Shown: positions 924 to 32,466 of the stretch, one piece after another
Layout: each line of letters starts with the position of its first letter
Numbering within the stretch: the stretch's first letter is position 1
Source: Ramlibacter sp.
GTDB lineage: Bacteria > Pseudomonadota > Gammaproteobacteria > Burkholderiales > Burkholderiaceae_C
Assembly (NCBI RefSeq): GCF_028291745.1
Contig: NZ_JAQGNQ010000058.1
Span: 1 to 64,000 of the forward strand
Length of the DNA: 64,000 nucleotides
Reading direction: 5' to 3'
Notes under the pieces: model-generated
What the model saw: the letters and a program-made list of their open reading frames with translations, nothing else
Databases searched by the model: none
Told to the model about the DNA's origin: nothing
Made by a program: the position numbers and the translations under genes

Positions 924-1979
924 TCAATGCCGGTGCGTGTGGTGAACGTCCGGCACGTGCGGATGGCTGTGGCGCGCAGGTTCATGGCGGTGAGCGTGGC
1001 TGTGCTCTCCTGCGCGTATCGGATCATGCACATGCTCGTGATGCCCGTCATCGTGCCGGTGGGCATGTTCGTGCTCCAGCGCTTCGTGCAGGTGTTCGTG
1101 CTCGTGCCGTTCGTACAGGTGCACGACGACCCCGGCCAGCATCAGCGCGCCTCCGCCCGCCATCCCCCAGCTCAGCCCGCGCTCCCCGAGCGCAATGGCC
1201 ACCGCCGCCCCGATGAAGGGCGCGAACGCAAAGACCGACCCGGTGCGGGCAGCACCGAACGCCCGCTGGGCGAGGAGGTACAGCCGCAGGCTGAGCCCGT
1301 AGCCGGTGGCACCGATCGCGAGCAGGGCCAGGACCTGTCCCCACCGCGGCCAGGATTCGCCCGAGCCGAGCGCCAGCAGCAGCGCCGCCGGCGCGCCGAG
1401 CGAAGCCTTCGCGAGCACCACCTGGGCCGGGTCGCGCTCCGCCACGCCGCGCGACAGGGTGTTGTCGATGCCCCAGGATGCCGTGGCCAGCAGTACCGCG
1501 AGGAGGCCGAGGAACTGTGCCTGGCCGGCGGCACTTCGGTCGAGGACCAGCAGCAAGCCGCCGGCGAGCAGCAGCAGCATCGCGATCCAGACGCGCCGGC
1601 CCATGGATTCGTGATACAGCAAACGGGCCAACAGGGCGGTGAACAGTGCCTCCAGTGCCAGCATCAGCGTCGCGCTCGTGCCGCTGGTGTGCTGCAAACC
1701 CCAGGCAAGCGCCACTGGCCCGATCACTGCTCCGAAAGCCGCCATCGCCACCAGCCGGGACAGGTCGCTGCGGCGGACCTTGGCCTCGCGTTCGGCGGGC
1801 CGGCGCAGCAAGGCGCCGAGCAAGGCAGCACCGGCATACAGCAGGGCCGCGGTGCTGAAGGCACCGACACCTTGCCCCGCCCGCTGCACAAGGGGCGTGC
1901 TGATGCCGAACAGAGCGGCGGCGAGCACGGCAAGAAAGCCGCCGCGCGATGCGGGCCAACGGGACGACGCGAACAACAT
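924..1979 (-). CDS. EamA/DMT-family transporter with His-rich C-terminal tail (copy 1)
   Basis: A 351-residue inner-membrane protein of the drug/metabolite transporter superfamily, with about ten hydrophobic segments forming two EamA halves. The substrate is unknown. I start it at the ATG at 1979, just before the first membrane segment (MLFASSRWPASRG), because the longer frame would run through the chrB promoter. The last ~60 residues are packed with His (HEHEH, HAHRH, HSHAHRH) and end in HHTHRH, which suggests metal chelation. It is divergent from chrB, and a close paralogue (26200..27264) sits in the same position beside the second chr operon. A role in metal or oxyanion handling is inferred from this conserved pairing. 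Confidence 0.8.
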   Translation of the reverse strand: MLFASSRWPASRGGFLAVLAAALFGISTPLVQRAGQGVGAFSTAALLYAGAALLGALLRRPAEREAKVRRSDLSRLVAMAAFGAVIGPVALAWGLQHTSGTSATLMLALEALFTALLARLLYHESMGRRVWIAMLLLLAGGLLLVLDRSAAGQAQFLGLLAVLLATASWGIDNTLSRGVAERDPAQVVLAKASLGAPAALLLALGSGESWPRWGQVLALLAIGATGYGLSLRLYLLAQRAFGAARTGSVFAFAPFIGAAVAIALGERGLSWGMAGGGALMLAGVVVHLYERHEHEHLHEALEHEHAHRHDDGHHEHVHDPIRAGEHSHAHRHEPARHSHPHVPDVHHTHRH

Positions 1980-5200: not shown

Positions 5201-6091
5201 ATGTTTCGTTCCCTTTGTATTGCGCTGGCTCTGGCCGGCCCCTGCGTCCAGGCCGCCACCGCGCCGATGGACACTGCAGCCATTGAATCGATTACCGGCC
5301 TGAAAGGCAGCTACGACGCGGCCGAAAACGTATTCAAGGTGAGCAAGCCGCGCGACGACGTGAAGATCACCGTCGATGGCGCGCCGCTGACACCCTTCCA
5401 GGGCCTGACCTCCTATGCTGCCTTCACGCCGATGGGGCGTGCGACCATGGTCATGGGCGATACGGTGCTGCTGGAGGATGAAGTGAACCCGGCGATGAGC
5501 GCGGCACTCGACGCAGGACTCGAGGTCACTGCCCTGCACAACCACTTCTTCTTCGACCAGCCCAGGGTGTACTTCATGCACATCGGCGGCTCGGGAGACG
5601 CACGCAAGCTGGCTGCCGGCGTGAAGGCGGTGTACGACCGCGTGGCGCAGATTCGCGCCGCGCAGGCCGCCCCTGCGGGCCACTTCGCCGGCGAGTTTCC
5701 CACGACCAGCAGCCTGTCCGCGGCCCCCCTTGCGCAGATCCTCGGTGCCAAGCCGGACACCAAGGACGGCATGGTGAAGTTCACGCTGGGCCGCAGCACC
5801 CGCATGCACGGCATGACGGTGGGCAACCAGATGGGCGTGAACACCTGGGCCGCCTTCGCGGGGAGCGACGACAGCGCGGTGGTCGACGGCGACTTCGCGA
5901 TGCGCGAGGACGAGTTGCAGTCGGTGCTCAAGTCGATGCGCGCCAGCGGCATCAACATCGTCGCCATCCACCAGCACATGACCAACGAGAACCCGCGCGT
6001 CATGTTCCTGCATTACTGGGGCAAGGGCAGGGCAAGCGACCTGGCGACGGCGGTCAACAACGCCGTGCAGACGCAGAAATCCATGCACTGA
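5201..6091 (+). CDS. DUF1259 domain protein, exported, two repeats
   Basis: A 296-residue exported protein (signal peptide to about residue 19, CVQA-A) made of two DUF1259 (LppY/LpqO-like) units, residues ~25-145 and ~165-290. Both units have the same pattern: I-x-G-x-KG then a central segment, then ALHNHFFFDQPRVYFMHIGG in the first and AIHQHMTNENPRVMFLHYWG in the second. The conserved H-x-H and RVxFxH residues could be a metal or ligand site, but the family has no assigned reaction that I know of. An AAGGAG-type site (cacaaggagagtccga) precedes the ATG. It lies between chrA and the SOD-rhodanese gene and is probably in the same transcription unit. Confidence 0.82.
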   Translation: MFRSLCIALALAGPCVQAATAPMDTAAIESITGLKGSYDAAENVFKVSKPRDDVKITVDGAPLTPFQGLTSYAAFTPMGRATMVMGDTVLLEDEVNPAMSAALDAGLEVTALHNHFFFDQPRVYFMHIGGSGDARKLAAGVKAVYDRVAQIRAAQAAPAGHFAGEFPTTSSLSAAPLAQILGAKPDTKDGMVKFTLGRSTRMHGMTVGNQMGVNTWAAFAGSDDSAVVDGDFAMREDELQSVLKSMRASGINIVAIHQHMTNENPRVMFLHYWGKGRASDLATAVNNAVQTQKSMH

Positions 6092-6129
6092 TGTCGCCGA
6101 GCTTTTTCATTCTTCACTGAGGAGACCTC

Positions 6130-7035
6130 ATGGAACTGCAACCCATGCCGCTGCCCTTCGAGCCAGCGAGCCTTCGCGGCCTGTCGGAACGACTGATGGT
6201 CAGTCATCACGCCAACAACTACGGCGGCGCGGTCAAGCGCCTCAATGCGCTGCGCGCTCAGCTCGCAGGACTCGACCCTGCAACTGCGCCCGGGTTCTCG
6301 TGGAACGGCCTGAAGCGCGAAGAACTGATCGCGATGAATTCCATGCTGCTGCATGAACTCTATTTCGCCAGCCTCGGCGCTGGCGAGCAGCCGATGGATC
6401 CCGCCTGGGCCCTGGCGCTCGCCGCGAACTTCGGCAGCGTGGAGCGCTGGCAGGCCGAGTTCAGCGCTTGCGGCAAGGCGCTGGCAGGAGGCTCCGGCTG
6501 GGTGCTGCTGACGTTTCTGCCGCGCGAGGGCACACTCGTGAATCAGTGGGCGGCGGACCATACCCACGCAGTTGCCGGTGGGGTGCCCCTGCTGGCCCTC
6601 GACATGTACGAGCACGCGTACCACATCGACTACGGTGCTGCAGCGGCGGGGTACGTTGACGCGTTCATGGGCAACATCCGCTGGCAGGCGGTCTATCAGC
6701 GTTACCAGGCTGCCGTGCATGCGGCCAGCGAGCCATTTGCCTGTGAGCCGCAGCAGATCGACAACGACCTGGTCCTGGACGTCAGGCGTGACGGGCCGTT
6801 CGCGCAGTCGCAAGAGATGATTGACGGTGCCCAGCGGCGCGACCCGGCGGCGGTCGCCGAATGGTCCGGTGAGCTCGATCCGCGCCGTCCCGTGGTCGTG
6901 TACTGCGTCTACGGCCATGACGTGGGACGCGCCACGGCATTGCGGTTGCGGGCAGCGGGCTTCAAGGCGCGCTTCCTGCGCGGCGGCATGTCCGCCTGGC
7001 AACAGGCCGGCCGGCCGGTGCAGCCAAAGGTCTGA
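6130..7035 (+). CDS. chrC: Fe/Mn superoxide dismutase fused to rhodanese domain (ChrC-like, copy 1)
   Basis: A 301-residue two-domain protein. Residues ~1-195 are an Fe/Mn superoxide dismutase with all four metal ligands in place: His26 in SHHANNYGG, His75 in LLHELYF, and Asp158 and His162 in LALDMYEHAYHIDYG. Residues ~205-300 are a rhodanese-like domain with a Cys259-centred loop YCVYGHDVGRAT and the closing FLRGGMSAW motif. There is no signal peptide, so it should be cytoplasmic. ChrC of known chrBACF clusters is a superoxide dismutase thought to deal with radicals from chromate reduction. The rhodanese fusion is unusual. It follows a GAGGAG-type site (tgaggagacctc) and ends the chr gene run. 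Confidence 0.88.
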   Translation: MELQPMPLPFEPASLRGLSERLMVSHHANNYGGAVKRLNALRAQLAGLDPATAPGFSWNGLKREELIAMNSMLLHELYFASLGAGEQPMDPAWALALAANFGSVERWQAEFSACGKALAGGSGWVLLTFLPREGTLVNQWAADHTHAVAGGVPLLALDMYEHAYHIDYGAAAAGYVDAFMGNIRWQAVYQRYQAAVHAASEPFACEPQQIDNDLVLDVRRDGPFAQSQEMIDGAQRRDPAAVAEWSGELDPRRPVVVYCVYGHDVGRATALRLRAAGFKARFLRGGMSAWQQAGRPVQPKV

Positions 7036-18193: not shown

Positions 18194-19015
18194 ATGGTCT
18201 TGGACACGCCCACCGTGAAGCGGTATCGAGGCGACTTCGTCGCCTGGACGGGCGGGTGCGGCTTCATCGGAGAGGGCGGAGGCGGGCCGATTTCGCCACA
18301 TTCGCATTACGCAATACAGCTTGTGATTGGCGCACCCACGGGATTGCGCGTCCAGTTCGGCCGCCGCGGAGAGTGGCAATCCTGCCCCGCCGCCTTGATT
18401 CCCTCTCGGGCGACCCATAGCATCGACGTCAACGAGTGCGACATCAGCGCGGTCCTGTTCATCGAACCGGAAACAGCTGCGGGTAGAGCGCTCTCCGCCA
18501 GACTACAGGGCGAGCTTGAGGTCCTCGGCACCAAGCAGGTGGCCGAGGGCGCCAAGCGCCTGGAACGGGCGTGGCGTACCGAGAAGAGCTACGAGGCAGT
18601 CAGCGCGGTGTGCCACCAGCTGGTCCAGGAGATTTCTCGTACCGCCTTCCGGGAGCCTTCCGACCCGCGGGTCTTGGCAGCCATTGAATACCTGCGCCAA
18701 CGGGTCGACGAAACTGTGACGCTCTCCGCGGTGGCCAAGGCTGCGAATCTGTCCCCTGGTCGGTTCCGGCACCTCTTCGTGGAAGAGACCGGGATGCCCT
18801 TGCGAACCTACGTTCTGTGGCGCCGACTGCTGCACGTCTGGACGCTCCTGATGCAAGGCGAGACGCTCTCCGGTGCCGCCCATGCTGCCGGCTTCGCGGA
18901 CTCGGCGCACCTCTCCAGGACGGCGCGGACCATGTTCGGCCTGGCGCCATCTGCCTTGCAGATGACCGGCCCCCTCAGCGCTCGCATTCGCAGCCTGGAA
19001 CATCACTTGGGTTGA
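18194..19015 (+). CDS. AraC-family transcriptional regulator
   Basis: A 273-residue regulator: an N-terminal cupin-like sensing part (PHSHYAIQLVIGAPTGLRVQF, VNECDISAVLFIEP) and a C-terminal pair of helix-turn-helix motifs (VTLSAVAKAANLSPGRFRHLFVEETGMPLRTYVLWRR region from about residue 180). The inducer is unknown. It is divergent from the Crp/Fnr gene, and its 3' end overlaps the convergent peroxidase gene by 13 bases. Part of that shared 3' end is repeated at 21257-21321. Confidence 0.86.
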   Translation: MVLDTPTVKRYRGDFVAWTGGCGFIGEGGGGPISPHSHYAIQLVIGAPTGLRVQFGRRGEWQSCPAALIPSRATHSIDVNECDISAVLFIEPETAAGRALSARLQGELEVLGTKQVAEGAKRLERAWRTEKSYEAVSAVCHQLVQEISRTAFREPSDPRVLAAIEYLRQRVDETVTLSAVAKAANLSPGRFRHLFVEETGMPLRTYVLWRRLLHVWTLLMQGETLSGAAHAAGFADSAHLSRTARTMFGLAPSALQMTGPLSARIRSLEHHLG

Positions 19016-19057
19016 AGCACGGGTCCCGTGAGGGTGCCGAGGAACGCGGCCAGGTCC
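18993..19057. repeat. 65-bp direct repeat, copy 1 (araC/peroxidase 3' ends)
   Basis: These 65 bases recur at 21257-21321 in the same orientation with two mismatches. This copy covers the last codons of the AraC-type gene on the plus strand and the last codons of the di-haem peroxidase gene (FLGTLTGPVLQPK) on the minus strand. The distant copy no longer sits next to either full gene. Confidence 0.85.
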
Positions 19058-20277
19058 TGGATGTCGGCGGCGGAGAGCTGGATGGTCTGACGGTCGGCGT
19101 GCTTCTCCCCGGGCCCGGCCAATTCGCTGTGGCCAATCGCCGCTTTCGGGGACGCGGCGTAGTGCTGCAGCACCTGGTCGAGGCTTGCGAACTGGCCGGC
19201 GTGCATGTACGGAGCCCTGGCTGCCACATTGCGCAGGCTGGGCGTGCGGAACGCTCCGAGCTGGCCGGCTTCGTCGACGGACAAGAACTGCAGCTCGCCG
19301 CACTCTTGCGGCTTCGCGTCGCTGTAGGGCCCCAGGCAGTTGAATTCATCCTTGAGCAGCTTCTTGAGGCCCTCAGCCCGCCCATGGTCAGGGTTCTTCG
19401 AGTCCACCGACGGCACACCCGTGTTGTGGAAGGCATGGTCCGTCAGAAGAGGCCCGTTGTGGCAGGTGACGCATTGGCCCTTGGTGAGGAAAGCGCGCAG
19501 CCCTCGCATCTCTTGAAGCGAGAGAGCCTCCTGGCCGCGGCCATCGCCATGAACAGTCGCCTCCGCGTACTGGTCGAAGCGCGAACCCGCGTAGGAGACG
19601 TTCCGCTCGTAGGCGGCGATGGCTTTGCCCATGTTCGCGAACACCCGATTGACCGCATCCCGCGTCGCCGGCGAAAGAGCGGCCCACGCCGCCCGCTCGG
19701 GCTCTGTTCCGTTTGGGGATGCGTCCTCCGGCAGCGTCCCGAGTTCAGGTGCGGAGCCGAACACCGCCTGGTACTGCGCCTCGTACTGGGCCAGCACCAG
19801 CCTGACGAAGCGCACGCGGTTGCCGCCGTGTTCTGCCGGGTCCTCCATGGGCCCAAGGGCCTGCGACCAGGCGCTGTCCTTGCGTCCGTCCCAGAACAGG
19901 AATGGCGAGTGCGCTGCGCCCATGACCGGCATGGTGCGACGCTTGCCAGTTGCTATGCCTTGGCCGAACTGCCGCCCGTCTTCGAATTGGCCCGTCGCCG
20001 AGTGGCAGCTGGCGCAGGCGACCTGGCCGTTCTTGCTGAAGCGGGTGTCATTGAACAGCGCGCGCCCGAACACGGCCGCTTCGGCGTGCTGCTCGTGCGC
20101 GTTGGAGACGTCAGCCGGGCGCTCGCCAGCTTCTTTCAGGCGCATCGAGCCAATCGCGGCAAGCTCTTGGGCCGACCACTTGTCCCGGGGCGGTGCTTGC
20201 TTGAAGTCCTGCGCGGCGAAGACAGTAAACGCGAGGGCGGCCGCCGTAGCCGCAACGCCGATGGAGCGCATGTTCAT
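19003..20277 (-). CDS. Di-haem cytochrome c peroxidase / MauG-family protein
   Basis: A 424-residue exported protein with two c-type haem sites, CASCH near residue 89 and CVTCH near residue 269, in the layout of bacterial di-haem peroxidases and MauG. A signal peptide lies at the N-terminus (IGVAATAAALAFTVFAAQ). The segment FLFWDGRKDSAWSQALGPMEDPAEHGG is typical of the family, as is FRTPSLRNVAARAPYMHAGQF. It may reduce periplasmic peroxide or oxidise another protein. The lipoprotein gene ends 12 bases upstream, suggesting cotranscription. Confidence 0.9.
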   Translation of the reverse strand: MNMRSIGVAATAAALAFTVFAAQDFKQAPPRDKWSAQELAAIGSMRLKEAGERPADVSNAHEQHAEAAVFGRALFNDTRFSKNGQVACASCHSATGQFEDGRQFGQGIATGKRRTMPVMGAAHSPFLFWDGRKDSAWSQALGPMEDPAEHGGNRVRFVRLVLAQYEAQYQAVFGSAPELGTLPEDASPNGTEPERAAWAALSPATRDAVNRVFANMGKAIAAYERNVSYAGSRFDQYAEATVHGDGRGQEALSLQEMRGLRAFLTKGQCVTCHNGPLLTDHAFHNTGVPSVDSKNPDHGRAEGLKKLLKDEFNCLGPYSDAKPQECGELQFLSVDEAGQLGAFRTPSLRNVAARAPYMHAGQFASLDQVLQHYAASPKAAIGHSELAGPGEKHADRQTIQLSAADIQDLAAFLGTLTGPVLQPK

Positions 20278-20289
20278 GGAAAGGCTCGC

Positions 20290-20727
20290 TTACCGGATGG
20301 CCGGATTGGCGACGACCGTGTTGAAGGTGACCTTGTCGGCGCCTTGAGGCCCGTCGATGGCGAGCTTCACCTCCCACCAGCCCGTCATGCTGAATTTCAT
20401 CCCGTCAAGCGCATATGTGCCATCGCCCATTTCGCGTGTGACGCGCGGCTGCGTGGGCAAGCCGTGGCCGTGCTGGGGCATGCCGCCGTCGACGACGAAC
20501 TTTGCGCCGTGCACCGGGAGACCGTCGGCCGTAGCGAGCTTCACCTTCCAGCTGTGCATCTGGTTGATGGCCGGCGCCTGCGCGGGGGGCACCAAAGCTA
20601 CCCGGTAGACGCCGGCGGCGGAGCTCTTGGCGAGGGAAAGGTCCAGGTCCTTGGGCGGCGTCATGCAGCCGGTAAGAAGTGCGGCCAACGTGGTGACCGC
20701 GGTCAATGCAGTGAGATTGCGAAGCAT
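20290..20727 (-). CDS. FixH/YtkA-like lipoprotein
   Basis: A 145-residue lipoprotein (lipobox LLTGCM, Cys21) with a YtkA-like beta-sandwich in the rest: MHSWKVKLATADGLPVHGAKF, then GGMPQHGHGLPTQPRVT and a closing MTGWWEVKLAIDG strand. His residues in the PQHGHG loop could bind copper, as suggested for related folds. An upstream GGAG site (cactggagaaatc) precedes the ATG. It lies just before the di-haem peroxidase gene on the same strand. Confidence 0.78.
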   Translation of the reverse strand: MLRNLTALTAVTTLAALLTGCMTPPKDLDLSLAKSSAAGVYRVALVPPAQAPAINQMHSWKVKLATADGLPVHGAKFVVDGGMPQHGHGLPTQPRVTREMGDGTYALDGMKFSMTGWWEVKLAIDGPQGADKVTFNTVVANPAIR

Positions 20728-20751
20728 GATTTCTCCAGTGAAGAGTGAGAC

Positions 20752-21111
20752 TCAGGCCCGAGCAGCGTCGAGCGCTTGCTTCAGGTCTTTCGGAACAGGA
20801 AGACGCCGCAACCCACTGACGTCCGTGCCGCCGGTGTTGCCTTCGGGCACAAGCCCGGGCGCCGTGAAGAGGGAGGCGGCCACAAGGCGCCAAACCTGGC
20901 CGGCGGCTTGCCTGTGCAAGCGGTTGCGCAGTGCAAACCGGAACATGCGCCAGTGGATGCGGACATGCTCCACGGTGCTGGACTGGCCGAGCACGTGTGC
21001 CCGCTCAAGGCGCTGGAAGGCGGTGTAGAACTCCCCGCGCGCTTCGGCCACGTCCGCGGCCGCCAGTTCTGTTTGCACCTTGGGTTTGATGCGAGTTGCG
21101 AAGGTGTTCAT
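20752..21111 (-). CDS. DUF3703 family protein (copy 1)
   Basis: A 119-residue protein with the DUF3703 pattern: a helix-turn-helix repeat-like core GEFYTAFQRLERAHVLGQ followed by STVEHVRIHWRMFRFALR and a Trp/Val-rich helix. The family has no assigned reaction. It resembles a single tetratricopeptide-like unit and often occurs near metal genes. The ATG has GGAG ten bases upstream. The gene at 21916..22566 is a paralogue, and the upstream DNA of both genes is duplicated too. Confidence 0.8.
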   Translation of the reverse strand: MNTFATRIKPKVQTELAAADVAEARGEFYTAFQRLERAHVLGQSSTVEHVRIHWRMFRFALRNRLHRQAAGQVWRLVAASLFTAPGLVPEGNTGGTDVSGLRRLPVPKDLKQALDAARA

Positions 21112-21140
21112 GAGGTGCTCCGGAGGTGGTTGCGATGCAC

Positions 21141-21253
21141 TGAATTCTTCGCTTGCGAAGCTGTTTGGACTTGAACGGAGAGGCTGATTTCGCAGCCCTT
21201 TTGTTCAAGTCGAACCTTCCTGCAACTTCCGGTGGCGGCACCCAGGTTCGTGT
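21141..21253. repeat. Duplicated segment upstream of DUF3703 copy 1
   Basis: About 110 bases upstream of this gene closely match 22596-22707 upstream of the second DUF3703 gene, with several substitutions and small gaps. Shared blocks include GAATTCTTCGC, CTTGAACGGA, TTCGCAGCCCTTT and GTTCAAGTCGAAC. The similarity shows the two DUF3703 genes arose by duplication with their 5' flanks, and the block may hold a common promoter. Confidence 0.7.
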
Positions 21254-21256
21254 CAG

Positions 21257-21321
21257 GCCTGAAACATCACTTGGGTTGAAGCACGGGTCCCGTGAGGGTG
21301 CCGAGGAACGCGGCCGGGTCC
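21257..21321. repeat. 65-bp direct repeat, copy 2
   Basis: This stretch matches 18993-19057 at 63 of 65 positions. Read on the minus strand it would still encode AAFLGTLTGPVLQPK and a stop, the tail of the di-haem peroxidase, but here it has no peroxidase gene in front. It lies just beyond the 3' end of the DUF2938 gene. Confidence 0.85.
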
Positions 21322-21334
21322 CCGCTCCCAAGTG

Positions 21335-21823
21335 TCAGATGTATGCGATGGCCAACGCGGCGACGTACAAGCCGAGGCCAAACATGCCGTGGTTTGCAAG
21401 ACTGCGCAGACAGGTCTTCAAGGGAGTCGCGGTCTTCAACGCGGCAAAACCGGACCCCATGGCTGGCTGCATCACAAACAGCGGCGCCGCCACCGTGACC
21501 AGCCCGAACACCAATGCGGGCAGGAAGGTCGGTTGCCTTGCCCACCCAGTCCCCACGAACGTGATCAGCGCCGCCGCATAGCCGATGCCGATGGCGTAGT
21601 GCGTTATCCAGCCGACGGCGAGCTCGCCTCGAACCGCCGGCGTATTGGCCATCGACGCATGGGCGAAACGGCCCTTGGGCATGTGCCCGACCCATCTACC
21701 AACCAGCCCCCAATTGGTGGTGGGCACTCCGAGTCGCGCCAGGATGAGCAGCCACACGTCCATGACGGCCGTGGCTCCGACGCCCATAAAGATGACGACT
21801 CCGATGTCCTGGACTGAGAGCAT
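21335..21823 (-). CDS. DUF2938 family membrane protein
   Basis: A 162-residue inner-membrane protein with four to five hydrophobic segments, matching DUF2938: VVIFMGVGATAVMDVWLLIL, NWGLVGRWVGHMPKGRF, GWITHYAIGIGYAAALI and a final NHGMFGLGLYVAALAIAYI. Function unknown. The ATG at 21823 is chosen because AGGA lies seven bases upstream; an ATG five codons earlier lacks this. It lies between the two DUF3703 genes. Confidence 0.82.
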   Translation of the reverse strand: MLSVQDIGVVIFMGVGATAVMDVWLLILARLGVPTTNWGLVGRWVGHMPKGRFAHASMANTPAVRGELAVGWITHYAIGIGYAAALITFVGTGWARQPTFLPALVFGLVTVAAPLFVMQPAMGSGFAALKTATPLKTCLRSLANHGMFGLGLYVAALAIAYI

Positions 21824-21915
21824 GTGAGGTCCTTTCATTCGTGATATGCGGCGGTGCGGAACAGGCCTGCGCTGAGACGCAGACTCGTGCGGAGTGCCTG
21901 TCTTTCCAGAGGTGT

Positions 21916-22566
21916 TTAGGCGCAGCTGCAGTTAGCGCAATCGCAATGAGGGACAGGCGCCTCGACGCGGGTCGCGCCGGCCGCAATCCATGAACGTTCT
22001 TCGCCGCGTGCACGGTCCTGGCCCGAAGGAAGAGCGCAGTGGCACGGAGAAGAGCTGATGTCGGTGTGGGCTGAAGGCCGCTGGTTCCGTGCAGTGCAGG
22101 TGCAAGTGTCGGCGCAGCTGCAGTCACCAGCGCAGCTGCAAGTGCCGGCACAGGTGCAGTTGCCGGTACAGGTGCCGGTGCAGATGCAGTTCGCCGCGGA
22201 GCGACGCTGGTCACTTCGAGAGGCGTCGATGATGGCCTGGACGTCCTCGGGAATGGCCATGCGGCGGATGCCGCTGATGTCCGCACCACCGGTGGTTCCC
22301 GTTGGCGCCAGGCCCACAGGGGTGAAGACGGTCGCCGCCAGGCGCCACGCCTGCCCGTACGCTTCACCGGGTTGCAGGTTGTGCAGCGTGTGCCTGAACA
22401 TGCGCCAGTGCACGCGCACGTGCTCCACGGTTGAGGGCTGGCCGATGACGTGTGCGCGCTCCAGATGCTGGAAGGCGGTGTAGCGGCGGCCCTGTGTTTC
22501 GGCGGACCCTGCTGCGTCGAGCTCTGCTTGCACGCTGGGTCGGATGCTGGTCGGGAAGGATGTCAT
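21916..22566 (-). CDS. DUF3703 protein with metallothionein-like Cys-rich tail
   Basis: A 216-residue protein. Residues 1-118 are a DUF3703 domain closely related to the gene at 20752..21111. After that comes a tail with 11 Cys between residues 127 and 157, mostly as C-x-C separated by two or three residues (units such as CTCAGT, CSCAGD, CSCADT). Six more Cys follow at 175, 177, 208, 210, 213 and 215 (CHC, HCDCANCSC). This density and spacing resemble metallothioneins, and no signal peptide is seen, so a cytoplasmic metal-thiolate cluster is a reasonable guess. The shorter paralogue lacks the tail. The coding DNA for the first cluster is an 18-base tandem repeat. Confidence 0.8.
   Translation of the reverse strand: MTSFPTSIRPSVQAELDAAGSAETQGRRYTAFQHLERAHVIGQPSTVEHVRVHWRMFRHTLHNLQPGEAYGQAWRLAATVFTPVGLAPTGTTGGADISGIRRMAIPEDVQAIIDASRSDQRRSAANCICTGTCTGNCTCAGTCSCAGDCSCADTCTCTARNQRPSAHTDISSSPCHCALPSGQDRARGEERSWIAAGATRVEAPVPHCDCANCSCA
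22098..22190. repeat. Degenerate 18-bp tandem repeat coding for Cys-x-Cys units
   Basis: About five imperfect copies of an 18-base unit lie head to tail (on the plus strand, for example gcagtcaccagcgcagct and gcaagtgccggcacaggt). Read on the minus strand each unit gives six residues, C-x-C-A-(G/D)-x. The repeat lies inside the DUF3703-metallothionein-like gene and explains how its Cys tail could have grown by slippage or unequal exchange. Confidence 0.75.
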
Positions 22567-22595
22567 TCGAGGGCTCCAAGGGGTTGGTGAGGCTC

Positions 22596-22707
22596 GAATT
22601 CTTCGCGCTCACAGGAATCTGGGCTTGAACGGAAAGGCCGGATTCGCAGCCCTTTCGTTCAAGTCGAACCCTGCTGCGACTACCGATGGCGGCACCCAGG
22701 TCCGTGC
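22596..22707. repeat. Duplicated segment upstream of DUF3703 copy 2
   Basis: This matches 21141-21253 upstream of the other DUF3703 gene. Conserved blocks include GAATTCTTCGC, CTTGAACGGA, TTCGCAGCCCTTT, GTTCAAGTCGAAC and GGCGGCACCCAGGT. It supports duplication of the whole gene plus leader. Confidence 0.7.
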
Positions 22708-22773
22708 CGGGGGGGTGCGGTCAACGGGATGACTCTCCGGTGGGTTCCTGCCTCGCGCGGGCCGAAACCGCGG

Positions 22774-23043
22774 TCAGCTGCTGCCTTGGTACTCGCGCAC
22801 GGCCTGCAAGAGCTGTTCACCAGCGCGCGCCACGCCCGTCAGGTCGACACGCGTATCCGCCAGCTGCCCAAGCAATTCGACGTGTGGTTCGATTTGGCTC
22901 GCCGTCACCGCTGTGGCGCTGCGCGTAAACGCCTCCCAGATGGCCGCGACTGCCGGCTCCGCGTCAGGCGGCAAGACGCCAGCGTGGACAGCTTGATTGA
23001 ACGCATCGAGCTTGTCGTAAACGGCTTGTTGAAAGCTGGTCAT
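22774..23043 (-). CDS. Small hypothetical protein downstream of chrA2
   Basis: An 89-residue, probably all-helical soluble protein (FQQAVYDKLDAFNQAVHAG, VAAIWEAFTRSATAVTA, GVARAGEQLLQAVREYQ). No known domain is recognised. It starts 59 bases after the chrA2 stop on the same strand and is probably the last gene of the second chr operon. Codon usage matches its neighbours. Confidence 0.6.
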   Translation of the reverse strand: MTSFQQAVYDKLDAFNQAVHAGVLPPDAEPAVAAIWEAFTRSATAVTASQIEPHVELLGQLADTRVDLTGVARAGEQLLQAVREYQGSS

Positions 23044-23101
23044 CCTTGCGGTGTCTCGAAAGCAGTCTGAGCAATGGTGGTCGGGACACCAGGCGCGAGC
23101 G

Positions 23102-24304
23102 TCAATGGTGCATCAGGGGGTAAACCAGCAATCCGAACGCTGCGGCTGCGACGATGACATACGGCTCCTGCAGCTTCTTGAATTTCCACAGGACCGCCAG
23201 TGTGAGCAGCGCTAGCAACGCCGTCGGTACATCCACGATGGACCTCCTTGCAATCACGATGACGGCGCCCGTGATGGCCCCAATGGCCCCGGCGGTGATG
23301 CCGTCCACGAACGCCTTGACGGCGGGGAGCCTGCCGTACTTCTTGAAGTAGGGCGCCGGAATCACGGTGAACAGGTAGCAAGGCAAGAACGTGGCAAAGG
23401 CCGCCACGCAGGCGCCCCAGAACCCTGCAATCAGGTAGCCGATGAAGCCCACGGTGATGACGACCGGCCCGGGGGTAATCATCGCGACCGCCACCGCATC
23501 CACGAACTGCTTGTCGTTCAACCACTGGTGCTCGGTGACCACCCCTCCGTAGAGGAACGGAACGATGGCCAGCCCCGAGCCGAACACGAAGGCGCCCGCC
23601 TTGGCGAAGAAGATGCCAATCTGGGTCAGCAAAGGCCAGTGGACCGCGCCTAGCAGCGCCGGCGCGAGCGGCGCCGCAAGTGCTCCGACGGACCCGCTAC
23701 GAATCCACTTCGGCGGGGCGCGAACGACCATGACCAGTACGCCGGCCGCGATGAAAAGCCAGGCAATCTCGGACTCCGTCACCACGGTCACCCCTGCCAG
23801 GACCAGGTAGACGGCCCACAGCAGGCGGTCCTTGCCGACGCTCTTGGTGGTCAACTTGTACGCGCTCATGGCGATGATGCCGATGACCGCCGCGCCCACC
23901 CCGTAGAAGACCGACTGCATCCAGGTGAGCCCGCCATATCGCACGTAGGCCCACCCGAGCGCCACCACCATCAGAAACGAGGGAATCACGAATGCGATGC
24001 CAACCAAGGTCGCGCCGACGATTCGGTAGTGCACGTATCCCAGGTAGATGGCGAGCTGCGCGGCCATCGGGCCGGGCGCAAGCTGCGCAAGCGCGATGCC
24101 CTCCTTGTAGTCGTCCTCGCTAATCCACCCGCGGGCTTCGACCAGGTCACGATGCATGTACCCGGCCAGGGCAACAGGCCCGCCGAAGCCCAGGGCTCCG
24201 AGGCGCAGCATGTACAGCACGAGCTGCCACACCGTGTAGGCCGGCGCAGTAGCTGGCGCACCGGGAGTTGCAGTCTCTTGGCGCACAGGTCTTGGTGATT
24301 TCAT
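23102..24304 (-). CDS. chrA: ChrA chromate efflux transporter (copy 2)
   Basis: A 400-residue CHR-family transporter homologous to ChrA1 throughout. Shared signatures are LGALGFGGPVALAGYM, SEDDYKEGIALAQLAPGP and VAMITPGPVVITVGFIGYL, with about ten membrane segments. It differs from ChrA1 by a Pro/Ala-rich N-terminus (KSPRPVRQETATPGAP). I use the ATG at 24304; an upstream in-frame start would add 19 unlike residues. It follows chrC2 after 99 bases. Confidence 0.92.
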   Translation of the reverse strand: MKSPRPVRQETATPGAPATAPAYTVWQLVLYMLRLGALGFGGPVALAGYMHRDLVEARGWISEDDYKEGIALAQLAPGPMAAQLAIYLGYVHYRIVGATLVGIAFVIPSFLMVVALGWAYVRYGGLTWMQSVFYGVGAAVIGIIAMSAYKLTTKSVGKDRLLWAVYLVLAGVTVVTESEIAWLFIAAGVLVMVVRAPPKWIRSGSVGALAAPLAPALLGAVHWPLLTQIGIFFAKAGAFVFGSGLAIVPFLYGGVVTEHQWLNDKQFVDAVAVAMITPGPVVITVGFIGYLIAGFWGACVAAFATFLPCYLFTVIPAPYFKKYGRLPAVKAFVDGITAGAIGAITGAVIVIARRSIVDVPTALLALLTLAVLWKFKKLQEPYVIVAAAAFGLLVYPLMHH

Positions 24305-24403
24305 TTGCCGGCTTGAACGTCCAGGTCCCGGAGCTGCACAACGCTGTCCGCCTTCGACCACAGGCCGATACGGGCCGCGGCGGGTTGCTGGAGGGACGCC
24401 TTG

Positions 24404-25123
24404 CTACGTGCGCGCCGCGTCCAGGCGCTCAGCGACGTTGTCCCAGTTAACGATGTTGAACAGGGCGTTGACGTATTCGCCGCGCCGGTTCTGGTACTTC
24501 AGGTAGTACGCGTGCTCGAAGACATCAAGCACGAGAAGCGGAGTGACGCCCCAGGCGGTCAGCTTCTGGTGGTTCTCGCACTGCAGGACCATCAACTTCC
24601 TGGTCACGGGGTGGTAGCCCAGGATGCCCCAGCCCGAGGCTTCAACAGCCGTGGTTGCGGCCGCGAGTTGCGCCTTGAGCTTGGCGAAAGAGCCGAACTC
24701 GGAGCCTAGTGCACTGGCCAGGTCTCCCTTCGGCTCTCCGCCCTTGCCGCCGAGGTTTGTCCAGTAGATGCTGTGGAGGAGGTGACTCGAGAGCTGGAAG
24801 GAGAGCTCTTTCTGGTAGTGCTTGACCAAGGCGAAGTCGTTGCCGTCTCGTGCCTTGGCCAGCGCCGCCTCCGCGTTGTTCGCCGCCGTCGCTGCGGGCT
24901 TGTGATGAAAGTTGTAGTGCAACTCCACCGTCTTCGCGTCGATGACGGGTTCGAGCGCGTCAGACGGGAAGGGCAGGGGGGCCACGGCGTACCTTCCGGC
25001 CTCATCGGTCAGCCTGTCGGCATAGCGCTTCTTCGGCATCGGTTGCGCGGTTGCCGCGGCTGCAGCGAGGGCGGCGCCCGCGACCAGCGCGCCGCCCTGA
25101 ACGAAATCTCTTCTATTCTTCAT
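24404..25123 (-). CDS. chrC: Fe/Mn superoxide dismutase with Tat signal (ChrC, copy 2)
   Basis: A 239-residue Fe/Mn superoxide dismutase. The N-terminus MKNRRDFVQGGALVAGAAL is a twin-arginine signal, so unlike copy 1 it should act in the periplasm. Metal ligands are present: His in YNFHHKPAATAANN, His in SSHLLHSIYW, Asp and His in LVLDVFEHAYYLKYQ. The ATG at 25123 has GGAG about eight bases upstream. The order chrB-chrC-chrA differs from the first locus (chrB-chrA...chrC), and there is no rhodanese domain. Confidence 0.9.
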   Translation of the reverse strand: MKNRRDFVQGGALVAGAALAAAAATAQPMPKKRYADRLTDEAGRYAVAPLPFPSDALEPVIDAKTVELHYNFHHKPAATAANNAEAALAKARDGNDFALVKHYQKELSFQLSSHLLHSIYWTNLGGKGGEPKGDLASALGSEFGSFAKLKAQLAAATTAVEASGWGILGYHPVTRKLMVLQCENHQKLTAWGVTPLLVLDVFEHAYYLKYQNRRGEYVNALFNIVNWDNVAERLDAART

Positions 25124-25151
25124 CTGAGTGCTCCGTTGTTCGCCGCGGCTT

Positions 25152-26102
25152 TCAGTGACGGTTCGGTGCCTGCAGCGCGGCGTGCAGGGCGTCAAAAAAT
25201 GAAATGCCAGCCTTGAGCAGCGCGTCGTCGTCCGCGTGCTGCGCTTGCAATCCCCGCACGAGCATCTCGAGACCTGGGGCTTCGTCGCGGGGGATGCCGC
25301 CAACGTCGATGTAGTGCACGAGTTCGCCGATGCGGCGCACTGCGGGCGCTTCGTCCAGGCCGAATGTCCGGGCCACGACTTCGAAGGTCACCAAGTTGCC
25401 GACGTGGGTGAACGTCGCGCCGTCGAAGTCATAGCCAATGGCATCCTTCGGACACTTCTTTGCGTCGGCCAGCCAGAGGAACTTCGCCTTCTTGTCGATG
25501 AAGCGTTCGACCAACCATGCCGTGGCAAGCCTGTCCATCCAGGGACGCTTGCGGGTGGCCCAAGTGCGCCCTTGAAAGTCTTCGATGCGGCGCGGCTCGA
25601 TGACGGCTTGTTCCGCGGCCGGCTCGTCCGGCGAGAGGTGCAGCTGAATTTCTCGTCTCAGGCCAGCCACTGCCTCCGCTGCCGCTGCTTGGTCCTTCCC
25701 GGGGAAGAAGTCGCTTGCCTGGAGTTGCTGCAGTTGCTGCTCCAGGGCGCGCAGCGTCTTGTGGAGCTCAGCCTCACTCGCTCGTTTGATGGTCCTGCGG
25801 GCATCCTTCACGGCCTGCAGCAACTCCGCGTACAAGTCGGCGCGGTCGAACAGGGCCCGGAAGGCGTTCTCCTGGGCGTCGTCCCTGGCGTCCACCTCAA
25901 GGAGGTGAGCATCGGCGCCCGCCTCGACGATGGCTCGGTCAATGTCTCGCAGCGCCTGGGCTGTTGGCGCCGTGCAAGGCAGGACGTACACGCCCTCGCG
26001 AAGGGTGCCAGCACCGGTAGCCTTGAGCGCGCGCCACACCCGCACCCGCAAGCCGCTCGGGTTCGTGGGAAGCGTCGCTGTCAGGATGAGCCAATCAGCC
26101 AT
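25152..26102 (-). CDS. chrB: ChrB chromate-resistance regulator (copy 2)
   Basis: A 316-residue ChrB protein with N-terminal winged-helix-like region (LILTATLPTNPSGLRVRVWR) and C-terminal ChrB domain (FQGRTWATRKRPWMDRLATAWL, IGYDFDGATFTHVGNLVTFE, LVHYIDVGG). It is homologous to ChrB1 over its length. The ATG at 26102 sits about seven bases from the -10 box, so the transcript is probably leaderless, as for copy 1. It heads the operon chrB-chrC-chrA-hypothetical. Confidence 0.92.
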   Translation of the reverse strand: MADWLILTATLPTNPSGLRVRVWRALKATGAGTLREGVYVLPCTAPTAQALRDIDRAIVEAGADAHLLEVDARDDAQENAFRALFDRADLYAELLQAVKDARRTIKRASEAELHKTLRALEQQLQQLQASDFFPGKDQAAAAEAVAGLRREIQLHLSPDEPAAEQAVIEPRRIEDFQGRTWATRKRPWMDRLATAWLVERFIDKKAKFLWLADAKKCPKDAIGYDFDGATFTHVGNLVTFEVVARTFGLDEAPAVRRIGELVHYIDVGGIPRDEAPGLEMLVRGLQAQHADDDALLKAGISFFDALHAALQAPNRH

Positions 26103-26137
26103 GTAGCAAATATCGCACGGCGTGAGGACTGCTACAA
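26102..26137 (-). promoter_or_regulatory. chrB2 promoter, probably leaderless
   Basis: On the minus strand TTGTAG (26137-26132) and GATATT (26114-26109) are 17 bases apart and the ATG begins at 26102. The TTGTAG box is identical to that of chrB1. Half sites GTAGCA (26103-26108) and TGCTAC (26130-26135) form an inverted pair around the promoter, echoing the GTAGC/GCTAC dyad at the first locus. Confidence 0.55.
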
Positions 26138-26199
26138 GTAGGGGCTGCGAGCGCGTGTCGCACACCACTGTTTCCGCCCGACGTGGTCAACTGCGGGCC

Positions 26200-27264
26200 A
26201 TGTCCATCCACCCCGCGTCGCCGGCTCTGGCGGCCGCATTGCTTTTTGGGGCCAGCACGCCCTTGGCCAAGCTTCTTGTGGGCACCACGCACCCACTGCT
26301 CCTGGCCGGTTTGCTCTACCTCGGCAGCAGTGTCGGGCTCGCACTCCTGTTAGCCGTCCGCGTGCTGCGCTCCAGGCCTGGCCCGGCGGACGGCGCCACG
26401 ATGCGCATCCCGGCCCGCGATATCCCCTGGCTGGCTGGCGCCATCCTGTTTGGCGGCGTGCTCGGACCGGCGCTCCTGATGGTGGGTCTCACGCGCACAA
26501 GCGGCGCGTCGGCCTCCCTTCTTCTGAACGTGGAGGGGGTGTTGACAGCGGTTCTGGCATGGGTTGTCTTCGGAGAGAACGCCGACAGGCGAGTGGTGCT
26601 CGGAATGGTCGCCATCGTGGCGGGCGGCGCGCTGCTTGCCTGGGAGCCGGGAGGCGCAGCGTTTTCGGGTGGCGCATTGCTCGTCGTCGCTGCGTGCCTG
26701 TGTTGGGCCATCGACAACAACCTGACTCGAAAGGTCTCGGCCAACGACGCCATGCTCCTGGCGTGCCTGAAAGGAGCGCTTGCTGGCGCGGGCAACACGG
26801 CCCTGGCAGTTGCGGCCGGCGCCCACCTGCCGACGTGGCCGGCGGTCGCTTCCAGTCTGCTCGTAGGGTTCTTCGGCTACGGACTCAGCCTCATGCTGTT
26901 CGTCGTCGGACTACGCACTCTGGGCACTGCACGAACCGGGGCGTACTTCTCAGTCGCGCCGCTGTTCGGCGTCCTGATTTCCCTGGCCGTCTGGCCTGAG
27001 GCACCCGGACCACTTTTCTGGGTGGCCGCTGCACTGATGGCGGTCGGCGTCTGGCTGCACGTGCGGGAGCGGCACGAACATGAGCACACGCACGAACCAC
27101 TGGAGCACTCCCACCGACATCGGCATGACGAGCACCATCGGCACTTCCACGACTTTCCCTGGCGTGGCGAGGAGCCCCATGCGCACCTGCATCGGCACGA
27201 GGTACTGACGCACAAGCATCCTCATTACCCGGACATCCACCACCGCCACCGCCACCGGCACTAG
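26200..27264 (+). CDS. EamA/DMT-family transporter with His-rich C-terminal tail (copy 2)
   Basis: A 354-residue inner-membrane transporter of the drug/metabolite family, about ten membrane segments in two EamA halves (LFGASTPLAKLLVG in the first, CWAIDNNLTRKVS starting the second). The last ~60 residues are extremely His-rich (HEHEHTHEPLEHSHRHRH, ending HHRHRHRH). It is a paralogue of 924..1979 and again divergent from chrB, with about 97 bases between. The preserved pairing points to a function linked with the chr operon. The ATG at 26200 lies just before the first membrane segment. Confidence 0.85.
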   Translation: MSIHPASPALAAALLFGASTPLAKLLVGTTHPLLLAGLLYLGSSVGLALLLAVRVLRSRPGPADGATMRIPARDIPWLAGAILFGGVLGPALLMVGLTRTSGASASLLLNVEGVLTAVLAWVVFGENADRRVVLGMVAIVAGGALLAWEPGGAAFSGGALLVVAACLCWAIDNNLTRKVSANDAMLLACLKGALAGAGNTALAVAAGAHLPTWPAVASSLLVGFFGYGLSLMLFVVGLRTLGTARTGAYFSVAPLFGVLISLAVWPEAPGPLFWVAAALMAVGVWLHVRERHEHEHTHEPLEHSHRHRHDEHHRHFHDFPWRGEEPHAHLHRHEVLTHKHPHYPDIHHRHRHRH

Positions 27265-31812: not shown

Positions 31813-32466
31813 TCAACCCTTGTCCGGTTCGAAGAACGAGTATTTCAACTGCGGCGACGTGAATCGCCGCTGCATGCGTTCTTCAATTTCGTTGATGGCT
31901 TCGACGAGAGCGACGTCCGACGCTGTCCGCTTCATCTTCACCTTCAATGCGACCATGATGTAGTCGCCATATTGCTGGGTGAGCATGTTCACCACGCGCT
32001 CTACCTCGGGCTGGGCCTCGACGAACGCTTGGATTTCCGAACGGAGCTTGGGCGACGCCGATTCACCCGTGATGAGGCTCTTCACCGGGAACAGCACGAC
32101 GCCGGCGACGACGACAAGGAGCGCGCCCACGCCGATGGTTCCCAAGGCATCGAACAGAGGATTGCCCGTGAGGGCCGTGAGAACGAGGGCCAACAGGGCG
32201 ATTGCCAGACCTCCGAGGGCGACGTCTTCACCCACTACGACCATCAGCTCGGACTGGCGCGTCGCGCGAAACCACGCCCACAGCGAGCGGGTGCCACGCT
32301 CGGCACTGACCGTCTGCAAGGCTCCTCGCAGCGCGTACCCCTCGAGCGCAACGGATGCCGTCAAGACAAGAATGGATGGCGCAAGGGCCGCTAGCACGGC
32401 CTTGAGCGAACCCGGTTTCTCGGCCTTGACATGAGCGGGAGAAGCAGCGGCGTGGTGCGCGTTCAT
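31813..32466 (-). CDS. CDF-type cation exporter lacking the first three membrane segments
   Basis: A 217-residue protein. It begins with a His-containing leader (MNAHHAAASPAHVKAEKPGS) and LKAVLAALA, which is how full CDF exporters begin. It then jumps straight to what is normally the fourth membrane segment (SILVLTASVALEGYALRGA), continues through segments five and six (VVVGEDVALGGLAIALLALVL, LGTIGVGALLVVVAGVV) and keeps the cytoplasmic metal-binding domain (residues ~135-210). About 100 residues holding segments 1-3 and the first H/D metal ligands appear to be missing in frame. Its ATG overlaps the UPF0016 stop. Function as a complete pump is doubtful. Confidence 0.7.
   Translation of the reverse strand: MNAHHAAASPAHVKAEKPGSLKAVLAALAPSILVLTASVALEGYALRGALQTVSAERGTRSLWAWFRATRQSELMVVVGEDVALGGLAIALLALVLTALTGNPLFDALGTIGVGALLVVVAGVVLFPVKSLITGESASPKLRSEIQAFVEAQPEVERVVNMLTQQYGDYIMVALKVKMKRTASDVALVEAINEIEERMQRRFTSPQLKYSFFEPDKG

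Follow-up and report, generated by a model that had tools for sequence, protein, structure and literature searches.

A DUF3703 protein with a candidate metallothionein-like tail on an 18-bp repeat in Ramlibacter sp.

Can a metal-binding domain arise from a simple DNA repeat at the end of a bacterial gene? The question is raised by a gene of Ramlibacter sp. on contig NZ_JAQGNQ010000058.1 (assembly GCF_028291745.1), of which we analysed positions 1 to 64,000, here called the window. The gene, at 21916-22566 on the minus strand, encodes P0001, a protein of 216 residues in which a DUF3703 domain is followed by a cysteine-rich tail. We read P0001 as a DUF3703 protein of the cytoplasm that handles metal and has recently gained a lineage-specific, metallothionein-like tail. 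Judged from the sequence, belief and doubt are about evenly balanced here, and a function of the tail is likely rather than shown.

The tailed protein and its repeat array

The coordinates and the strand of the open reading frame (ORF) are confirmed by our reading; it starts with ATG, with GGAG seven bases ahead. According to the profile search and the alignment, the domain covers residues 7-113 (22228-22548, minus strand). The match to PF12487 has an E-value of 9e-30 and 103.2 bits against a gathering score of 22.3, i.e. P0001 is a full member of the family by profile score. The domain is under computed purifying selection and keeps H39, H49, H53 and M56; the near-invariant N91 is changed to threonine and one residue is missing near position 76.

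After the domain the frame continues into a tail of 98 residues with 17 cysteines, as the original prediction had described the fusion. The cysteines are at positions 127, 129, 133, 137, 139, 143, 145, 149, 151, 155, 157, 175, 177, 208, 210, 213 and 215, and they form eight CxC pairs. The prediction had placed 11 of them in residues 127-157 and six more near the end of the protein, mostly in CxC pairs; the counts and the pairing are right, but two of the six (175 and 177) lie in the middle of the tail. The first 11 belong to a repeat array (22096-22188, minus strand), which is followed by a mid-tail C-H-C at residues 175-177 (22036-22044, minus strand) and a terminal C-D-C-A-N-C-S-C at residues 208-215 (21922-21945, minus strand).

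The DNA of residues 127-157 is a degenerate tandem repeat with a period of 18, as had been noticed before, with 3.9 copies and 74% matches (84% at a period of 36). Its consensus unit reads C-T-C-A-G-T in codons, and a CTCAG-like unit is likened to mammalian metallothionein. The Cys richness of the tail comes from this repeat, and the earlier idea of growth by repeat expansion is supported.

Signs of selection on the tail were sought in shuffled DNA and in the Cys codons. Among 20,000 dinucleotide shuffles of the tail DNA, the mean number of cysteines was 5.6 and the highest 14, so that 17 were reached in none (0/20,000), and eight CxC pairs were likewise reached in 0/20,000. Each of the 11 array Cys codons still encodes Cys, the only differences in these columns being two changes from TGC to TGT. 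Under random placement, the chance that no Cys is lost is 0.02-0.03 for the 11 distinct changes or 0.004-0.007 for the 16 in total, with the repeat register set by hand and the changes treated as independent. The combined support for selection on the Cys frame is moderate, not strong.

Residues 127-160 contain no Phe, Trp, Tyr or His, and 11 of the 31 residues 127-157 are cysteines. The sequence traits of a metallothionein in the broad sense (a high share of Cys, CxC pairs, no aromatics) are thus found in the array. The word metallothionein in the original prediction holds for the CxC likeness and not for family identity, as three pieces of the tail match no Pfam family at E<=10. If metal is bound, the tail would work like a metallothionein, by likeness at most and outside PF02069. 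By analogy with SmtA and the Pseudomonas metallothioneins (PF02069), thiolate clusters with soft ions would be expected in such a Cys-rich tail; the SmtA-like Pseudomonas protein binds four Cd in a thiolate cluster with a His ligand (PMC7387436). Unlike these free-standing small proteins, P0001 has its Cys segment as a repeat tail on DUF3703, and its residues 127-160 lack a His. The metallothioneins of Oikopleura and Tetrahymena share with the tail CxC units and growth through repetition; they are however eukaryotic and free-standing, and the tail has no significant sequence match. In the portions of the literature on metallothionein fusions and repeats that were available, no bacterial fused metallothionein was recognised.

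DUF3703 relatives and the YtkA-MauG cassette

DUF3703 is found in 28 out of 60 genomes of the genus, in 43/399 of the family and 16/399 of the order (protein search), in 11/369 of the class and in 24/398 of the phylum, where each draw includes the own genome, the draws overlap and the thresholds differ. It is also present in several phyla of plasmid hosts. The literature search found no paper under the name DUF3703.

The DUF3703 matches that became loci gave 109 distinct C-termini, after duplicates and rows with a profile match ending before position 100 were dropped. P0001 is a full member of the family, yet its C-terminus is the only Cys-rich one (1/109); in the remaining 108, no more than one Cys follows the domain. 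Two candidates for tailed relatives, L003 and L005, were rejected: their tblastn matches reached query residues 151 and 141, yet neither end is Cys-rich. We also scanned 84,980 species genomes for six exact peptide patterns, of which three came from the tail; the patterns matched 32 times and led to three relatives, all without the tail. The original prediction had itself named a lack of Cys-tailed homologues in related genomes as a point against it, and none was found in these sets. Among the relatives read, the Cys-tailed DUF3703 is private to P0001, and the tail is probably functional.

Another kind of extension occurs in 7 of the 109 C-termini (L003, L006, L008, L014, L015, L057 and L144, the latter at 6001-6837; Pfam was run on three), where DUF3703 reads in frame via a hydrophobic or lipobox-like segment into YtkA. 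In plasmid pPNAP03 of Polaromonas naphthalenivorans, DUF3703-YtkA is annotated as one coding sequence. P0001 resembles these fusions in having an in-frame, metal-linked C-terminal extension, but theirs consists of the hydrophobic or lipobox-like segment plus YtkA and not of a CxC tail. An internal start inside these frames is possible, and they may encode a single two-domain protein tethered to the membrane or hold two genes that overlap in frame. For Bacillus subtilis, the YtkA domain has been implicated in supplying CuA with copper (PMC13344008). In L104, L105, L143 and L159, a single hydrophobic, probably membrane, segment follows the DUF3703 domain or ends the protein, which suggests that the DUF3703 C-terminus is in general a place for anchors or fusions.

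We compared the context of 14 loci (3.5-17 kb each), picked by us among near relatives. In 11 of them YtkA and MauG come after DUF3703, and ten of these 11 also have a convergent AraC-type regulator (in part in L178). In the window, the ORF reading and Pfam give a DUF3703 paralogue of 119 residues, P0002 (20752-21111, minus strand). It is followed, according to Pfam and the locus comparison, by a YtkA-like protein with a lipoprotein-type start (20290-20727, minus strand), a MauG-type di-haem cytochrome c peroxidase (19003-20277, minus strand) and, at the convergent end of the cassette, the AraC-type regulator (18194-19015, plus strand). P0002 lies 0.8 kb from P0001 and ends at residue 119 without a tail, i.e. 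it is the domain-only paralogue of the original prediction. A DUF2938 protein is encoded between both DUF3703 genes (21335-21838, minus strand).

By sequence, no clear sister relation of P0001 and P0002 emerges. Constraining the pair to group costs 20 log units, yet at a p-AU of 0.11 (approximately unbiased test), and a recent duplication of P0002 is not established. The four rows nearest to P0001 by path (L006, L003, L057, L008) all carry the YtkA extension, with weak support.

The upstream regions of P0001 and P0002 share a 116-bp stretch, 80% alike, which includes a 40-bp near-palindrome of the form CTTGAACGAAAGGGCTGCG...CAGCC...CGTTCAAG (22624-22663 for the tailed gene and 21170-21209 for P0002, both minus strand). 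Its left arm has no other copy in the window at up to three mismatches. Many relatives also have the palindrome ahead of their DUF3703 gene; it is perfect in L016 and present in 10 of the 11 cassette loci, the eleventh (L144) being outside that comparison. It may serve as an operator or form a leader hairpin. A search for a sigma-70-like promoter at 20600-23200 found none.

Origin of the tail

DNA of the array type is common in the genus. It matches at E<=0.001 in 29 out of 59 genomes, own included, and all matches lie in or touch the array part except in G004 (one match of 22 bases). We read nine of these loci, with frames judged by length and without a Pfam check: in six (L118, L119, L120, L122, L124, L125) a Pro-Ala frame is longer than any other forward frame, L121 and L123 are ambiguous with a longer Cys/Thr frame, and L126 breaks off where its contig ends. 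Read out of the frame of its Pro-Ala linkers, DNA of this kind yields CTCTGS-type sequences. This is the case for G443:C153, the only candidate tail homologue among 399 family genomes (E 2.8e-9), which was rejected as an out-of-frame reading of a Pro-Ala linker in a longer open frame. A Pseudomonas plasmid match (H47) inside a TraG-type gene was set aside as a simple repeat.

A tentative proposal is that the tail is a de novo bacterial metallothionein domain. A hexamer tract behind an extra DUF3703 copy, elsewhere in the genus often a Pro-Ala linker, would have come to lie in the Cys frame, grown by 18-bp (CTCAGT) units and been retained because metal binding was selected; no such DUF3703-anchored form is found among the relatives read. 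In the order of events that we infer, an extra cassette copy would have lost YtkA-MauG (the YtkA part, carried in frame by the nearest relatives, may never have been joined to this DUF3703 copy), the frame of P0001 would then have run into a TGCACC-type tract, and this tract would have grown in the Cys frame. A metal or a partner protein would be held or docked by the DUF3703 core, and the flexible tail would cluster several soft ions (Cu(I), Zn, Cd) via thiolates, buffering them, most likely when the adjoining chromate and copper genes are on.

The same tract could also have been read through without selection, a possibility that we hold less likely than our main reading. A rearrangement with loss of YtkA-MauG and gain of DUF2938 would have cut off the former end of the ORF, leaving a frame that runs on to the next stop through non-coding DNA with a (TGCACC)n-type tract, and the cysteines would be a by-product of the repeat. 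A stretch of 65 bp between the two DUF3703 genes (21257-21321, minus strand) is a 97% direct repeat of 18993-19057, the 3' end of MauG; it abuts the upstream region of P0002 and reads as a rearrangement scar. The open frame is cheap, because 20% of the shuffled tails stay open. Residues 161-206 show flat codon-position GC and no coding signature, and the frame of the array ranks fifth of six by codon score. By inspection, the antisense frame of the array has Gln opposite each of the 11 cysteines, so the intact TGY codons alone do not single out the Cys frame; it is singled out by its continuity with the DUF3703 domain. Although the array is the most Cys-rich stretch of 34 residues among the 329 stop-to-stop frames of at least 100 residues in the window, two other frames reach 10 Cys in 34 residues, one as the antisense reading of a His-rich permease tail and the other at 1544-1645 (minus strand), and a Cys-rich reading alone is therefore no evidence. 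The scar, the share of shuffles that stay open, the flat codon-position GC and the antisense frame with 10 Cys, together with the Pro-Ala readings of like DNA and the lack of such a tail in the relatives read, weigh against a selected tail. Read-through without selection fits less well with the synonymous-only changes in the array Cys codons and with the constraint on the domain itself. The second CxC cluster, at the C-terminus, has a frequency of only 5.5e-4 in the shuffles and also argues for selection; this is weakened by 19 nt at 21914-21932 that are 89% like 22106-22124 in the array, as the cluster may be a displaced repeat.

The gene lies between a ChrB-SOD-ChrA group and the cassette, with multicopper oxidase, CusF, CopC and CopD beyond, so that the chromate/copper island of the original prediction is present in the window. 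According to Pfam, the group upstream on the same (minus) strand consists of ChrA (23102-24361), an Fe/Mn superoxide dismutase (SOD, 24404-25303) and ChrB (25152-26168). This position, and the precedent of a chr operon whose SODs act against chromate-made reactive oxygen species (ROS), (PMC4779226), would suit a thiol tail that reduces or scavenges Cr(VI) or ROS, or traps Cr(III), instead of storing Cu, Zn or Cd. We regard this as improbable. In all 14 relative loci, as far as the stretches compared extend, the chromate and copper proteins of the window are absent from the vicinity of DUF3703, and the palindrome upstream of P0001 argues for control separate from the chromate genes. CxC spacing is typical of soft-ion thiolate clusters, and redox pairs are typically CxxC; the spacing in the tail is CxC. 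Least credible, and disfavoured, is the idea that recombination brought in part of a known metallothionein gene or of another gene rich in Cys. The position at the junction and the Cys make-up would fit, but among solved structures the tail matches rat metallothionein-2 at only E 1.6, and PF02069, like the Pfam search of the tail pieces, gives nothing (0/59 genus genomes, own included). As a protein, the tail has no plasmid match at E<=1, with plasmid DNA matches confined to the array or domain, and in the 59 genus genomes only noise besides the gene itself (best other E 0.00165).

Three other ORFs of the island were noted. An ORF of 89 residues without a Pfam match (22774-23043, minus strand) lies between ChrA and the tailed gene. 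An EamA-type permease with a long His-rich C-terminal tail (26122-27264, plus strand), a second metal-type tail in the island, adjoins ChrB. A protein of 217 residues (31813-32466, minus strand) has as its sole match a zinc-transporter dimerisation domain, at 24.2 bits below the cut-off of 26.7, and may be a variant like the cation diffusion facilitators (CDF).

The DUF3703 core and its meaning

In 74 aligned members, P0001 being one of them, the residues A38, H39, Q43, H49, H53, R75, P88, G90 and G93 are invariant, and all are kept in P0001. The fold comparison (VIA-align 2) listed mostly TPR proteins and no metal-binding folds, which excludes nothing. The core is possibly a TPR-like pair of helical hairpins with a proposed site of H39, H49 and H53 (with M56) between helices 2 and 3. 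The neighbours of DUF3703 on plasmids are cadR with cation transporters (CDF), P-type ATPases with metal-type regulators, or resistance-nodulation-division (RND) efflux systems. Seven out of 46 plasmid records were opened, in which the Chroococcidiopsis region has no metal gene and the Polaromonas region shows the cassette only.

The YtkA extensions, the invariant histidines and the metal-gene neighbours suggest that DUF3703 proteins handle metal, probably copper. This claim is firmer and more general than the one for the tail, and it bears out the hint of a metal role in the original prediction. If the tail binds metal, it would show that simple repeat DNA can give rise to a bacterial metallothionein within a single lineage, and it would give a direct handle on the DUF3703 family. 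Even without the tail, a metal-handling role of DUF3703 can be tested, and this would be the more solid gain.
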